Of a stretch of DNA of 34,374 nt, positions 1,973 through 6,735 are shown piece by piece. The position numbers and the translations under genes were made by a program. The stretch spans positions 1-34,374 of the forward strand of contig JAITFE010000107.1 in NCBI GenBank assembly GCA_031281585.1. The letters are read 5' to 3'. Positions within the stretch are counted from its first letter, which is position 1; every line of letters begins with the position of its first letter. Source of the stretch: Bifidobacteriaceae bacterium (lineage in GTDB: Bacteria; Actinomycetota; Actinomycetes; Actinomycetales; WQXJ01). Below the pieces are notes generated by a model. The model was not told the DNA's origin, did no database searches, and saw nothing but the letters and a program-made list of their open reading frames with translations.

Positions 1973-4168
1973 CTACTTGGCCGCCGCCGCCGCCAAGGCG
2001 AACTCATCCTCGACCCACGGCTCGGAAGCCTGGGCAGACTCCTCCATCGGCCCCCACTTCGCGGCCGCGCCCGCCGGAGCAACGTCTGGCCACGCCTCCG
2101 GCGCTGCCTGAGTTGCCTGAGCTGCCGGCGCTTGAGCAGGCTTTTCCCTTCGGTCCGCCGAGCCCAGTTTCTGTGTTTGGGGGGAGCCTTCCCCTTGCGA
2201 GCATGATCGTTCGGGTTTGGGTATGGCTCCGAGTCTTTCCAGTTTGACCCTGATGCGGTCGTTCAGCATTGGTTTGCGTTGCGGATCGACGCGGGCCGGC
2301 GGTATGACCACCGGGTGATGGTGGATCGGGTCGATCTCGGCTCGCCACCTGGTTGGGTCGTCGCAACCGGGGAACCACCCGGTCCCGTCTGGCAACTTCA
2401 GCGCGGGCTCCAAAAGCCGGTGATGCCGGTGACAGGCGAGGACGAGGTTTTCCAAACTGGTGTTCCCGCCGAGCACCCATTTTCGCAAATGGTGGGCCTC
2501 GCAGCCGTCCGGGCCGATCCCGCAGCCCGGGAAACAACAGCCGGCATCGCGTTGGCTCAACGCGATCCTGATCGCGGGCGGGATTCCCCGTGTCGCCCGA
2601 CCGACGTCGAGCGGCTCCCCGAATGAGCCCGCCAGCACCGCCGCCCATTCCGCTCCGCAGATGAGCTGGTTGACCGCCTCAGGGGCGAGTTCCCCGCCGT
2701 CCTCCCCCAAAGTCGCGACGGGCGCGGCGGCGCCGAGTTGGTCTTTGGTCATGGTGACCACGATCCGGGCCGGCCTGCCGGCCCTCAGCGGGGCGTCCTG
2801 CGGGCAGGCGTCTGCCAACGCCGCCAGGGCGTCCAACAAGGACGCCCCGAAGGGATCGGCGTCCTCCCGGCCGGAGACCGTGGGGTCCCACAACCGGCCC
2901 GCGTCGGGATCACCGCCGTTGCCCTCGTCTGTGCGCTCGCGGCGGGCGGCCAACGCCGCCCCTTCCAAGCGCCTTTTGATTTTCGCTCCCACCTCGACCG
3001 GGCAGCGGCCGTTGATCACCATCGCCTGACCGTTCCGGCGGAAGGACAAGAAGCGCCCCCTGTGCGCCTTTTCGCGTTCTAAGTTCAACTGGTCATCCCG
3101 GTCGCCGCCGACCCCAGCTTTCCGCCGGGCGTTCGCCACCAACTCGCGGGCCTTGGCGCCCAACGCCCCCGGGCCCAGTCTCCCGGCGTCCTCGATCAAC
3201 TCGGCCTGGGCTTCCTCCAAGGCCTTGTCGCCCAGCAGATCCGCGGGGAAGCCCTTCAGTTCGCGCGCCACCGCCTGGGCCTGCGCCGGAGCCATCTCGC
3301 CCTTCTGGGCCGCCCGGCTCACCAATCCAAAGGGCCGGAGCGCTTCGCCCTGTTTGATGAGCCTCTTCGCTTGTGCGGCAGGCATCTTCGACTCCAGTTG
3401 CAGATGCGACTCCACGTCCAAGCCCTTTGCTTTCGCCGCCGCACCCTTGCGCTTGACCTCCTCCGCGACCGCCGCCGTCAGCGCCTCTGCCTGATTGCCG
3501 ATCTGCGCCAGCACATCCAGATTCGCCAGCGACTCCTCGGCGCCCAAGCCGGACCGGTCACGGGCCGCGAACCTGCGCAGACCCTCGCGGGCCGCCAACA
3601 AACCAGGATCCGCGAAACCCATGCCACCCCACCCGGCACCCGGCGAGGTTCCCGGCGCGCCCGCGCCCCCGTACCCACAGTCTCCGTCAACGGCACGATC
3701 GCCGTGCGAACCAGCGCCCGGCGCGCCCGCGTACCCGCAGCCCCCGTCAACGGCACCATCGCTGCCCGAACCAGCCCCCGGCGCGCCCGCGTCCTGGCCC
3801 TCCCCGCCTGCGGCGCTGTCGGCGCCCGGAATCAGGGCCTCTGTGCCACCGACTGCCCGCGCGCTTGGCGAGAACGAACCCGAGCGACCTCCGGCAGGCG
3901 GCCAGCCAGTCTCCGCGGCGGCCCAGGCCTCCAGGCCGCTCAAGCCCGCCGCCCCCAAGATGCCCGCCACAACAAGGGCGACGTCTCTCGATCCGGCCGC
4001 CACGAACTCGGCCGCCTCAACCGAACCCGCAACGCGGCCACTCCCGCCCACGACACGGCCCCCGGCGGGCGGCGCGGGCGCGGTCTCCGCACCGGGACCG
4101 CGGGCGGGAGACTCACCGCCGGGCAACCGGCCGGGCGCATGCCGCAGAGGGGCGGTCCCCGCGCTCAC
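1973..4168 (-). CDS. DUF222 and HNH endonuclease domain protein (13E12-repeat family)
   Basis: A 731-residue protein of the multi-copy actinobacterial DUF222/HNH family. Residues ~1-195 are low-complexity Gly/Ala/Pro. DUF222 covers roughly 195-500. An HNH nuclease module follows, with CCFPGC, EAHHLRKWVLGG, NLVLACHRHHRLLE: paired cysteines for zinc plus the catalytic His-His, Asn and His. The C-terminal ~100 residues are again disordered. The family is often linked with mobile DNA, but its biological role is not established. Start: GTG 4168 overlaps the TGA of an upstream 29-codon ORF as GTGA, and there is no convincing Shine-Dalgarno for this GTG on its own, so translation is probably coupled. 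A 60-bp tandem duplication lies inside the N-terminal region (3671-3790). The gene ends 11 bp before rlmB begins, so the two may be co-transcribed. Confidence 0.85.
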   Translation of the reverse strand: MSAGTAPLRHAPGRLPGGESPARGPGAETAPAPPAGGRVVGGSGRVAGSVEAAEFVAAGSRDVALVVAGILGAAGLSGLEAWAAAETGWPPAGGRSGSFSPSARAVGGTEALIPGADSAAGGEGQDAGAPGAGSGSDGAVDGGCGYAGAPGAGSHGDRAVDGDCGYGGAGAPGTSPGAGWGGMGFADPGLLAAREGLRRFAARDRSGLGAEESLANLDVLAQIGNQAEALTAAVAEEVKRKGAAAKAKGLDVESHLQLESKMPAAQAKRLIKQGEALRPFGLVSRAAQKGEMAPAQAQAVARELKGFPADLLGDKALEEAQAELIEDAGRLGPGALGAKARELVANARRKAGVGGDRDDQLNLEREKAHRGRFLSFRRNGQAMVINGRCPVEVGAKIKRRLEGAALAARRERTDEGNGGDPDAGRLWDPTVSGREDADPFGASLLDALAALADACPQDAPLRAGRPARIVVTMTKDQLGAAAPVATLGEDGGELAPEAVNQLICGAEWAAVLAGSFGEPLDVGRATRGIPPAIRIALSQRDAGCCFPGCGIGPDGCEAHHLRKWVLGGNTSLENLVLACHRHHRLLEPALKLPDGTGWFPGCDDPTRWRAEIDPIHHHPVVIPPARVDPQRKPMLNDRIRVKLERLGAIPKPERSCSQGEGSPQTQKLGSADRREKPAQAPAAQATQAAPEAWPDVAPAGAAAKWGPMEESAQASEPWVEDEFALAAAAAK
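3671..3790 (-). repeat. 60-bp tandem duplication inside the DUF222/HNH gene
   Basis: Positions 3671-3730 and 3731-3790 match at 52 of 60 bases and stay in frame. On the minus strand each unit encodes a block of the type AGAPGAG-(x)-D(G/R)AVDG(G/D)CGY. A partial third copy of the GCGCGCCCGCG edge lies at about 3654-3665. This looks like slippage or duplication expanding the disordered N-terminal region. Confidence 0.75.
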
Positions 4169-4254
4169 AGCCCCACCCCGCGAACGGTCCCGAAAATGGC
4201 GTCAAGCAAACCCTCTACCACCGCTTGATGCCTGTTCGCATGCTGCTTACTCAT
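4165..4254 (-). CDS. 29-residue leader ORF coupled to the DUF222/HNH gene
   Basis: The ATG at 4254 opens a frame beginning MSKQHANRHQ and ending GTVRGVGL. Its TGA (4167-4165) overlaps the GTG start of the DUF222 gene as GTGA. A -10 box (TAGCAT, 4266-4261) stands exactly 6 nt before this ATG with a good -35 behind it, so the mRNA would be leaderless and this short ORF would be the first thing translated. An alternative start is the ATG at 4260 in the same frame (two residues longer), which has AAGGGAG upstream, but that overlaps the -10 region. The peptide may be a coupling leader, or the true N-terminus of the DUF222 protein joined by a -1 shift at the overlap. I do not recognise it. Confidence 0.5.
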   Translation of the reverse strand: MSKQHANRHQAVVEGLLDAIFGTVRGVGL

Positions 4255-4260
4255 ACACAT

Positions 4261-4289
4261 ATGCTACTCCCTTGGCGCTCCGAAGTCAA
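4261..4289 (-). promoter_or_regulatory. Sigma70-type promoter of the leader ORF-DUF222 unit
   Basis: On the minus strand TTGACT (4289-4284) and TAGCAT (4266-4261) are separated by exactly 17 bp. These match 5/6 and 4/6 of the consensus. The -10 is 6 nt from the ATG at 4254, giving a predicted transcription start at or next to that ATG. This is the best promoter match in the window. Confidence 0.6.
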
Positions 4290-4787
4290 CACCTTCCGCC
4301 ACAAGAATCCGCACCGAGACCCGTCCGCAACCGAACCTGCGAGCGAAGCCCGCATCGACCCGGCGGGCGGCCCAACCCGCGTCGGCGGCCCAACCCGTGC
4401 TGCGGCTCCCCCTGCGTCGCCCTGCCCAAAGTGCCACGCGGCTGCCGCGCGGCCGCCCCACGGTGCCACATGGCCAGGCGAGGCGACATGGAAGCGGAGC
4501 AAAACGGCATCGGCGGCCATGGCAGACAAGCTACGCCGCGCGTCTGACAACGAACCGGCCGCCCAAAGCACTCCCAAGGGCTGGCAACCCGCCCCGGCTA
4601 CGCCCGGCGCCCAGGCCGACCGGGGGGCGCAAAGCGGGCGCCTCCCCGCAGGATCCCGGACGCCGTGAACGGACATGGAGACAACATAGGCGACGGGTCT
4701 GACGTCAAAGAAGGCGGGAAAACGGGAGACGCGCCAGTGGCGGCCAGATTACGGCCCGTGGCGAAGCCGGTTCACCATACTTGGAGC
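4290..4787. other. About 500 bp without a convincing gene
   Basis: GC-rich spacer between the DUF222 promoter and the DUF4259 gene. Open frames exist on both strands but have no ribosome-binding site, no recognisable domain and a composition expected of stop-poor GC-rich DNA. The only structure I see is a 14-bp direct repeat GGCGGCCCAACCCG at 4366-4379 and 4384-4397 (period 18). No tRNA or clear terminator was found. Confidence 0.5.
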
Positions 4788-5177
4788 ATGGGCGCTTGGG
4801 GAACGGGGCCGTTCGACAACGACGGCGCCGCCGATTTGGTCGCCGAGATTCGGTACGACGATTTCGACTTGGACAATGTGGCGTGGGCCTTCGAGGATCC
4901 GGACCACATGGTGGTCGACGGCGGCCAAATCGCCATCGCGCTGGGGGCTTTGATCCAGGCCGTCAACGGCCTTCGGCCCGGCCCCGACGACGAACTGGAC
5001 TTGGCGGACTTCAAGGCCCAACTCACTCCCGAGCGCGTGGCCTGGGTCCGGGCCGAAATGCTCCGAGCGATGAGCGATGGCGCCGTCTCCGAGGCCTATG
5101 ACCTGTGGGAAGACGCGGGCGAACTCGAAGCCTGGCTGGAGGAGTCGCGGGCCTGCCTTCCCCCGGCCGCCGACTGA
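4788..5177 (+). CDS. DUF4259 domain protein
   Basis: A 129-residue protein starting MGAWGTGPFDNDGAADLV, the hallmark opening of DUF4259. The middle (IAIALGALIQAVNGLRPG) and the acidic C-terminal helix (YDLWEDAGELEAWLEE) also fit the family. The function is unknown. The proteins are small, soluble and scattered, and I infer from their patchy distribution that they may be accessory or immunity-type genes. The ATG at 4788 was chosen because homologues begin MGAWG. Upstream there is no strong Shine-Dalgarno, but CATACT (4776-4781) lies 6 nt before the ATG, consistent with a leaderless transcript. It is followed by the Wadjet operon on the same strand after 109 bp. Confidence 0.8.
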   Translation: MGAWGTGPFDNDGAADLVAEIRYDDFDLDNVAWAFEDPDHMVVDGGQIAIALGALIQAVNGLRPGPDDELDLADFKAQLTPERVAWVRAEMLRAMSDGAVSEAYDLWEDAGELEAWLEESRACLPPAAD

Positions 5178-5250: not shown

Positions 5251-5279
5251 TTCTCAGTGTCAGAGGGCGCCCCTAGAGT
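5251..5279 (+). promoter_or_regulatory. Candidate promoter of the Wadjet operon
   Basis: TTCTCA (5251-5256) and TAGAGT (5274-5279) are 17 bp apart, each matching 4/6 of the sigma70 consensus. The -10 ends 7 nt before the jetA ATG (5287), which lacks a Shine-Dalgarno. A leaderless jetA mRNA would explain both facts. Confidence 0.4.
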
Positions 5280-5286
5280 TTTCCGC

Positions 5287-6735
5287 ATGTCTTCGTTGGC
5301 TCCCGCGTTGCAGACCCGGCGGCTCGCCGCCGAGTCGGCGGCCTGGGCTCTGTTGCGCGCGGACAACGCCCCGGTGATCGTCGCGGTGCTCGGCCGGCAC
5401 CTGGGCGGGGAGGAGCGGCGGCTGCCCGCGCCCGTCCTGGCCGAACGTGTGGAGGAGGATCTCGCGGACCTCCGCAGCGACTTTCCCGAGCTCACACGCA
5501 CGGCGGTCGGCTACTTGACCGCCTGGCGCGAGCAGGGTTTCCTGGTCCGGCGGGTGGTGCCCGGCTACCGGGAGGAAACTCTCGAATTGTCCGATGCCGC
5601 CTTGGCGGCCCTCGCTTTCATCGCCAGTTTGGGGGAGGACCGGCAGGCGGTGACGGCATCGCGCCTGGAGACCATCTTGGAGCGGGTGCACGCGCTGAAC
5701 GTGGCGACCGATCCGCGCGTGGAGACCCGGTTGGCGGCGCTTGAGGCCCAGCGGGCGGAACTGGACCGGGAAATCGACCGTGTGCGGTCGGGCCGGTTCG
5801 AGGTGCTCGCGGCGGCGGACGCGGTTGAGCGCGCGGCGGACATTCTGGCCCTGGCCGCCGCCCTGCCGGCCGATTTCGCCCGCGTCCGGCGCCAGATTGA
5901 GGAAATCAACCAGTCCCTGGTGCGGCGCTTGGTCGAGGACCAAGACTCGCGGGGCCGGGTGCTGGAGGAGATCTTCGCGGGGATCGACCAATTGGAGGAA
6001 TCGGAGGCGGGCCGGTCGTTTGACGGATTCCACGCGCTGGTCAGCGACCCGGAGCGGTCGGGCCGCTTCGATGACGACGTCGAGGCGATCCTCGAGCGCG
6101 AGTTCGCGGAGCGGCTGCCGGCGGACCAGGCCCACGCGCTGCGGCGCATGCTGCCAACGCTCCAGGACACGTCCCGCGAGGTCCGGGACGTGATGACGTC
6201 GCTCGGCCGGTCGTTGCGCCGGTTTGTCCAAAGCGAGGAGCACGGGCGCGCCCGGCGCGTCCACCAACTGCTGCAGGGGGCGGCTGGGGCGGCGTTGGCG
6301 GCATCGGACAAGGCGCGGCTGCTGGACCCGACCGGGTTCCGACTGGACCAAACGTCGGTGGCGACCGCGGCGATCGGGGAATTGTCGCTGCGGGATCCGA
6401 GCACCAGTCGGTCGCTGGAGCCTTTGGAAGAGGCACCTTCCCTGCCCGCCGACTTGGACGCGCTGGCGGCCTTGGCCAGGGAAAGCGACATCGACTTCCG
6501 CGAGTTGCGGGAATCGGTCGCCGCCGCGGTCCGTGCGCGCGGGGCCTGCACAATCGCCGAGGTCTTGGAGGACCGTCCCGCCACGCAAGGCCTGGCCAGC
6601 GTGATTGGGCTGTTGGTATTGGCGCTGAAACACGGCTCGGTCGGGGACGGCGTGGAAACGGTGCGCTGGGAAACCGCCGGCGGCCAGCGGCGGCGCGGGA
6701 CGGTGCCCGTGTGCTTGTTCGAGGAGGAGCTTTGA
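5287..6735 (+). CDS. jetA: Wadjet anti-plasmid system protein JetA (DUF3375)
   Basis: A 482-residue DUF3375 protein, the kleisin-like (MukF-related) subunit of type I Wadjet. Wadjet is an SMC-family complex that recognises and destroys small circular plasmids. The N-terminal winged-helix part (LAAESAAWALLRADNAPVI... to about residue 110) is followed by long helices (about 110-330, e.g. LEAQRAELDREIDRVRSGRFEV) and a C-terminal winged-helix region ending RGTVPVCLFEEEL. The kleisin would bridge the JetC ATPase heads and bind JetB. The ATG at 5287 (MSSLAPALQ) is preferred over a GTG 10 codons upstream because the GTG falls inside the predicted promoter. Its TGA overlaps the TTG start of jetB. It is the first gene of a four-gene operon whose order A-B-C-D is that of the described system. 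Confidence 0.92.
   Translation: MSSLAPALQTRRLAAESAAWALLRADNAPVIVAVLGRHLGGEERRLPAPVLAERVEEDLADLRSDFPELTRTAVGYLTAWREQGFLVRRVVPGYREETLELSDAALAALAFIASLGEDRQAVTASRLETILERVHALNVATDPRVETRLAALEAQRAELDREIDRVRSGRFEVLAAADAVERAADILALAAALPADFARVRRQIEEINQSLVRRLVEDQDSRGRVLEEIFAGIDQLEESEAGRSFDGFHALVSDPERSGRFDDDVEAILEREFAERLPADQAHALRRMLPTLQDTSREVRDVMTSLGRSLRRFVQSEEHGRARRVHQLLQGAAGAALAASDKARLLDPTGFRLDQTSVATAAIGELSLRDPSTSRSLEPLEEAPSLPADLDALAALARESDIDFRELRESVAAAVRARGACTIAEVLEDRPATQGLASVIGLLVLALKHGSVGDGVETVRWETAGGQRRRGTVPVCLFEEEL

Follow-up and report, generated by a model that had tools for sequence, protein, structure and literature searches.

In mycobacteria, small leaderless open reading frames (ORFs) that are coupled to the following gene through an RTGA overlap form an established, over-represented class, as described in the accessible part of Shell et al. 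2015 (PMC4633059). MIRU elements, according to the accessible text of PMC12548453, insert at start codons with a coupling of −4 nt. The PafBC motif printed for M. tuberculosis in the accessible part of PMC8151990 corresponds to the promoter pattern denoted P1 below, and natural PafBC fusions have a layout with two WYL domains (PMC6789036, accessible in part).

We analysed a stretch of 34,374 nucleotides of DNA from a Bifidobacteriaceae bacterium (the window), in which a short leader precedes a nuclease gene. Judged from its sequence, this leader appears to be a conserved case of the leaderless RTGA-coupled small ORFs. We consider it likely that it serves as a relay for ribosomes ahead of an HNH nuclease that is present in multiple copies and probably regulated by DNA damage, in an arrangement that runs from an outer promoter (P1) through an upstream ORF (uORF1) and an inner promoter (P2) to the leader.

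The nuclease, its leader and the inner promoter

On the minus strand of the window, which carries all features below unless stated otherwise, a DUF222-type HNH nuclease of 731 amino acids begins at a GTG (1973–4168). Roughly 180 N-terminal residues are rich in Gly, Ala and Pro and are followed by the DUF222 and HNH regions, with the HNH residues AHH...N...CHRHH intact (the conserved H-H...N...H-H is present). Close copies in the same genome are 75% (C131), 66% (C133), 61% (C60) and 47–57% (C30) identical to the window nuclease. PF02720 did not match the window protein, whether at E 0.001 or E 10, and scored above the cut-off in all four of these copies (47.6 bits vs. a cut-off of 24.4 in C131); the DUF222 label of the window protein rests on homology, because PF02720 reaches the sister C131 and not the window protein itself. 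PF01844 (HNH) scored 17.7 bits on the window protein, just under its cut-off of 21.4, and no solved relative was matched at E 1. The N-terminus of the nuclease in another copy, L187 (G004:C42), runs into a collagen-like Gly-Pro-Thr triplet repeat.

The leader, uORF2 (4165–4254; MSKQHANRHQAVVEGLLDAIFGTVRGVGL, terminating in ...CTGTGAGCG), has 29 codons and a leaderless-type start, and its TGA overlaps the GTG of the nuclease. The sigma-A-type promoter P2 (4261–4289; read directly and supported by alignment and by a sequence model) consists of TTGACT (4289–4284), a spacer of 17 nt (4283–4267) and TAGCAT (4266–4261), with six nucleotides (ATGTGT) between the −10 element and ATG 4254. The sequence-only reading had described TTGACT-17-TAGCAT six nt before an ATG whose ORF ends in a GTGA overlap, and direct reading found this exactly as described. 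An alternative start at ATG 4260 would give 31 codons; the conserved start is ATG 4254, with GTATG invariant in 11/11 aligned copies. At the junction (4165–4168), the TGA (4167–4165) lies over the GTG (4168–4166).

To orient the DUF222/HNH loci we used tblastn, which matched 79 of 80 loci, plus the window (L069 gave no match); L131, with 700 bases, was left out here and in the count of in-frame DUF222 starts below. Eleven copies, the window included, make up the window's subfamily, in which TTGA(C/T)-17-TA..AT is followed by an ATG at a fixed distance; the loose P2 pattern also matches L088 and L093, both outside the subfamily. The block of P2 and ATG is more than chance, because TTGA, the −10 TA..AT and GTATG are invariant in 11/11 copies whose surroundings align poorly. 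According to a sequence model of the P2 block, 5 of the 18 family genomes examined contain it, and these belong to a single genus; the 11 copies on which the model was trained necessarily match, and the matches absent from its training set are G000:C100, G004:C42, G004:C9, G004:C40 and G005:C34. The genomes are mostly fragmented, and several copies end at contig breaks. The inner-promoter ends of G004:C9, C40 and C27 (L185, L186 and L063) are identical, with two of the contigs breaking just behind; these are probably recent identical gene copies that were collapsed in assembly.

Split and direct copies of the leader

We read 12 copies, of which 8 are split, with a separate leader (the window, C131, C133, C60, C30, G004:C59, G004:C27, and G004:C42, the last found by the model), and 4 are direct (L060, L065, L066 and L067), the P2 ATG being the nuclease's own first codon. 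Leaders of the split copies have 25–33 codons and vary in length and sequence. Their stop lies at most 5 nt from the nuclease start in 8/8 copies, with the junctions GTGA (3), ATGA (2), TGATCATG and TGACTATG (1 each, the two copies of the type TGA-NN-ATG) and GTGGCTGA (1). The phase is −1 in 7/8, the exception being G004:C27. The gene of L187 is cut off, and this copy is absent from the junction statistics, its junction having been read separately. From start-codon frequencies, the chance of such adjacency in the seven measured copies has a product of about 10−6; since the copies share ancestry and are not independent, this figure is too strong.

In the tree built from the nuclease part, the direct copy L060 groups with the split copy L063 (98/96) and the split copy L062 with the direct copy L065 (87/96), and the four closest copies of the window's own genome form one clade (100/99). 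Split and direct states thus interleave, and splitting therefore occurred, or was reversed, more than once; stop and start stayed adjacent across all splitting events. Eight split copies are not eight independent events, because ancestry is shared (four fall in one supported clade). Upstream of the start in direct copies, 17 nt pair weakly with the anti-Shine–Dalgarno (SD) sequence (−1.3 to −3.4 kcal/mol, where the background averages −5.2), which is what leaderless starts should show. Of 7 copies, just 2 have strong SD-like pairing ahead of the nuclease start; in the window, a G-rich sequence upstream of the GTG pairs at −9.8 kcal/mol. In the window and in C131, no RTG precedes the nuclease GTG within its open frame, and independent initiation is therefore conceivable there.

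These comparisons bear on three claims of the sequence-only reading. A leaderless start with translational coupling gains sequence support, since both the promoter and the stop/start adjacency are conserved in paralogues. Comparing the upstream regions of other DUF222/HNH copies, as that reading had proposed, found the leader in paralogues, so it is not confined to the window. The claim that the promoter is followed by a tiny ORF and not by the nuclease holds for the window and fails in four homologues, where P2 leads directly into the nuclease. Because P2 starts the nuclease directly in these homologues, the leader is probably the split-off first piece of the nuclease and not a dedicated throttle, although a putative dosage control of the nuclease by the leader is possible.

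Were the leader a neutral remnant, an N-terminal frameshift would have interrupted the nuclease ORF, and translation of the nuclease would begin by itself at GTG 4168 or downstream, whether or not the leader is translated. Such an origin agrees with the interleaving of states in the tree, the varying length of the N-terminal stretch and the G-rich sequence that precedes the window GTG; however, the adjacency has been kept in every split copy despite the varying length and sequence of the leaders, one phase is common to nearly all of them and the upstream pairing is weak in several, and we regard this explanation as unlikely. A programmed −1 frameshift that joins leader and nuclease in one protein, likewise raised by the sequence-only reading, appears highly improbable: no X_XXY_YYZ heptamer is found in the zone open in both frames at 7/7 loci (GGGTTTG in the window lies outside it), L063, in the other frame, would require the opposite shift, and folding over the junction revealed no unusual structure (z 0.87 to −1.52 for six sequences of 134–148 nt), even though both frames are open over 34–87 nt and a leader-type N-terminus and the nuclease form one ORF in four relatives.

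The leader also contains TCAAG...CTTGA arms (4202–4236), a stem-loop or palindrome with a loop longer than that of TCTCAAG-N5-CTTG in four paralogues, and might be a regulatory switch that works as an operator or attenuator and holds a harmful nuclease in check. The window's own genome has four occurrences of TCTCAAG-N5-CTTG, each in a DUF222 leader (C30, C60, C131 and C133); the window retains the arms, and the codons TCT and CAA are unexpected in a high-G+C genome. Against this, the motif was not seen in the aligned G004 leaders, it is at chance level in nine sister genomes, the reversed control in the own genome gave 2, and the arms hardly vary, which makes covariation uninformative; we consider such a switch improbable. 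The stem-loop was rejected as a general operator on account of its chance-level frequency in the nine sister genomes. Most likely, to judge from the copies compared, the leader is the nuclease's old leaderless start, split off and coupled to it by termination-reinitiation.

The damage-type promoter and uORF1

About 280 nt upstream of the leader ATG lies P1, a PafBC/RecA-NDp-type promoter motif (TGTCAG-N10-TAGCTT, 4528–4549); neither it nor uORF1 figured in the sequence-only reading. P1 matches the motif published in the accessible part of PMC8151990 and agrees with the consensus TGTC(G/A)G-N10-TANNNT on the sense strand (4549–4528). TGTCAG-N10-TA(G/C)NNT is found upstream in 10/10 subfamily copies with enough upstream DNA, and the C60 paralogue carries two full copies. 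In the window, a degenerate second copy, P1' (CGTCAG-N10-TATGTT, 4683–4704; a weak model match, E 1e-4), is followed by an ATG (4676) in frame with uORF1. The DUF4259 gene on the plus strand (4665–5177) has a domain that begins only at residue 43; its true start is therefore probably internal (MGAWGTG...), leaving space for the divergent P1' copy (4704–4683).

Throughout the window's own genome, the motif with a start codon occurs at 18 distinct sites (19 rows) vs. 0 for the reversed pattern. Behind these sites lie radA-, recQ-, dnaX- and ParE/GyrB-like genes, a DNA methyltransferase gene, several DUF222 genes and jetA, names that were judged by eye from N-terminal sequences and are not database matches; a few sites have no recognisable gene behind them. 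In G000 and G001 the model of the P1 block also matches radA-like genes, and in G004 a gene for a RecB-like nuclease. The only WYL locus of the genome has two WYL domains within one 732-aa frame, for which NCBIfam gave no name above cut-off; the genome thus appears to encode a fused PafBC-like regulator that resembles the fusions in the accessible part of PMC6789036. Among other DUF222 loci of the order, 8 of 62 have P1 immediately ahead of an in-frame start (about 0 expected); another six loci, in which the frame continues past the end of the sequence, are not among the 62. Outside the order, in other, named actinobacteria, the damage motif is rare directly before DUF222 genes (2 of 69 loci counted, from 80, of which 74 were submitted), and the PafBC motif was rejected as a general feature of DUF222 genes on this count.

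Two neighbouring observations concern the same motif. Next door in the window, the Wadjet (JetABC) operon has a PafBC-type motif (5258–5289, plus strand) directly before the leaderless-type jetA ATG (5287), and in 59 relatives the jetA motif stands about 60–70 nt before the matched domain at 4 of 22 loci (G000, G001, G017 and G032; 0.01 expected), the 22 including L229, which has no clean translation; Wadjet may possibly be inducible by DNA damage. L188 (G000:C100, 98753 onward), a DUF222-like locus of another subfamily, has a damage-type motif and a uORF1 of 28 codons with an ATGA onto the start.

The upstream ORF of the window, uORF1 (4251–4520), has 89 codons; its ATG lies 7 nt past the −10 of P1 and its TGA overlaps the leader ATG (ATGA). 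Each copy has an RTG 6–7 nt past the damage-type −10. The sequence of uORF1 drifts except for its first codons (Met-x-Ala-Asp-Ala-Val-Trp-Phe in some copies), and its frame is open as far as the inner promoter in 13/13 loci, with 0 stops in 948 codons, compared to 10 and 11 stops in the other two frames of the same loci. Under a Markov model, the same stretches contain 10.0 ± 3.2 stops, and none of 5000 sets had 0 stops; an earlier test on ten loci gave 0, 7 and 10 stops, with 6 of 2000 Markov sets free of stops. Left out of the test were the ORF behind the first of the two P1 copies in C60, which has 70 codons and a single stop that falls in the −10 of the second; L186, a near-duplicate of L185; L189, which lacks a start codon; L193 and L194, both truncated at contig ends; and L063, which comes without upstream DNA. 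The sequence data thus support the open frame of uORF1 well. It ends exactly at ATGA in 6/13 loci, and in the remainder 7–34 nt before the ATG, inside P2. Exact coupling of uORF1 to the leader was rejected as a selected trait, because 6/13 is near the one third expected if the frame is irrelevant and not convincingly above it.

A putative ribosome relay and its relation to known systems

Under the proposed relay, P2, as a housekeeping-type promoter, would make a leaderless mRNA beginning at ATG 4254. Ribosomes would read the 29 leader codons, stop at the TGA in GTGA and restart on the GTG of the nuclease, and this termination-reinitiation would tie the output of the nuclease to translation of the leader. 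P1, as a DNA-damage-type promoter, is predicted to make a longer leaderless mRNA that starts near 4520 at uORF1, from which ribosomes would reach the stop at the leader ATG (ATGA) and go on to translate first the leader and then the nuclease. A spacer left untranslated would be exposed to Rho, as the accessible text of PMC12548453 indicates; an open uORF1 would keep the damage-induced transcript translated and protected from Rho, and would deliver ribosomes to a start codon that is suited to a position at the mRNA 5' end. Direct copies are almost without SD pairing at the shared ATG, so ribosomes on the long transcript probably need such delivery. The leader itself would be the ancestral leaderless N-terminus of the nuclease, detached by frameshifts that would have fallen in a fast-changing, dispensable N-terminal stretch, with the coupling retained.

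Leaderless genes need their start codon at the 5' end of the mRNA, and how they gain extra upstream promoters is a puzzle. Tentatively, a uORF that is not conserved and yet obligatorily open might be a pure ribosome conduit, which would let a damage-inducible promoter stack upstream of a leaderless gene without SD, with stop/start overlaps handing ribosomes on to what had been the 5'-end start codon and the split leader being a second relay stage; we hold this wider generalization to be less probable than the relay at the locus itself. At 13 of the present loci, the stretch that separates a damage-type promoter from a leaderless-type start has remained translatable despite drift in its sequence, and these natural cases allow a direct test of the relay model. 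The findings further suggest that, in this lineage, a nuclease family with multiple copies and little previous study is under DNA-damage control, and they revise the position of the N-terminus in members of the family.

DUF222/HNH (13E12-type) repeat proteins are multi-copy actinobacterial HNH proteins, as are those found here, with sister copies exceeding the PF02720 cut-off; unlike them, the window copy is missed by PF02720 and has a long N-terminus of low complexity. P1 resembles PafBC (RecA-NDp) promoters, as far as the accessible parts of PMC8151990 and PMC6789036 describe them, in its motif TGTCAG-N10-TANNNT, in the repair-type genes behind such sites and in the two-WYL regulator that is encoded. 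It differs from them in that, in the DUF222 subfamily that bears P2, it would drive a non-conserved ORF toward a second promoter and not a gene directly. As with MIRU elements in the accessible text of PMC12548453, a short ORF precedes a resident gene with a 4-nt overlap that would couple the two; in contrast to them, there is no sign of the leader or uORF1 as a mobile repeat before unrelated genes. A likeness in form is shared with the mycobacterial class in the accessible part of PMC4633059, in which a short ORF at a predicted leaderless start shares its TGA with the next RTG in the −1 frame: the overlap here is GTGA (4168–4165), with the TGA shared with the nuclease GTG in the −1 frame, and the 29 codons of the leader fall within the 5–50 codons of that class, with the 5' end of the mRNA predicted from the −10. 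In contrast to the mycobacterial class, the downstream gene here is a multi-copy nuclease, the start is common to the direct copies, and a second promoter with a long leaderless ORF of its own is stacked upstream. Our full-text searches of openly accessible papers listed no report of the stacking of a damage promoter with an open conduit. In this comparison, leaderless small ORFs with RTGA coupling are a known class, and the stacked damage-promoter relay predicted from these loci appears to be new.
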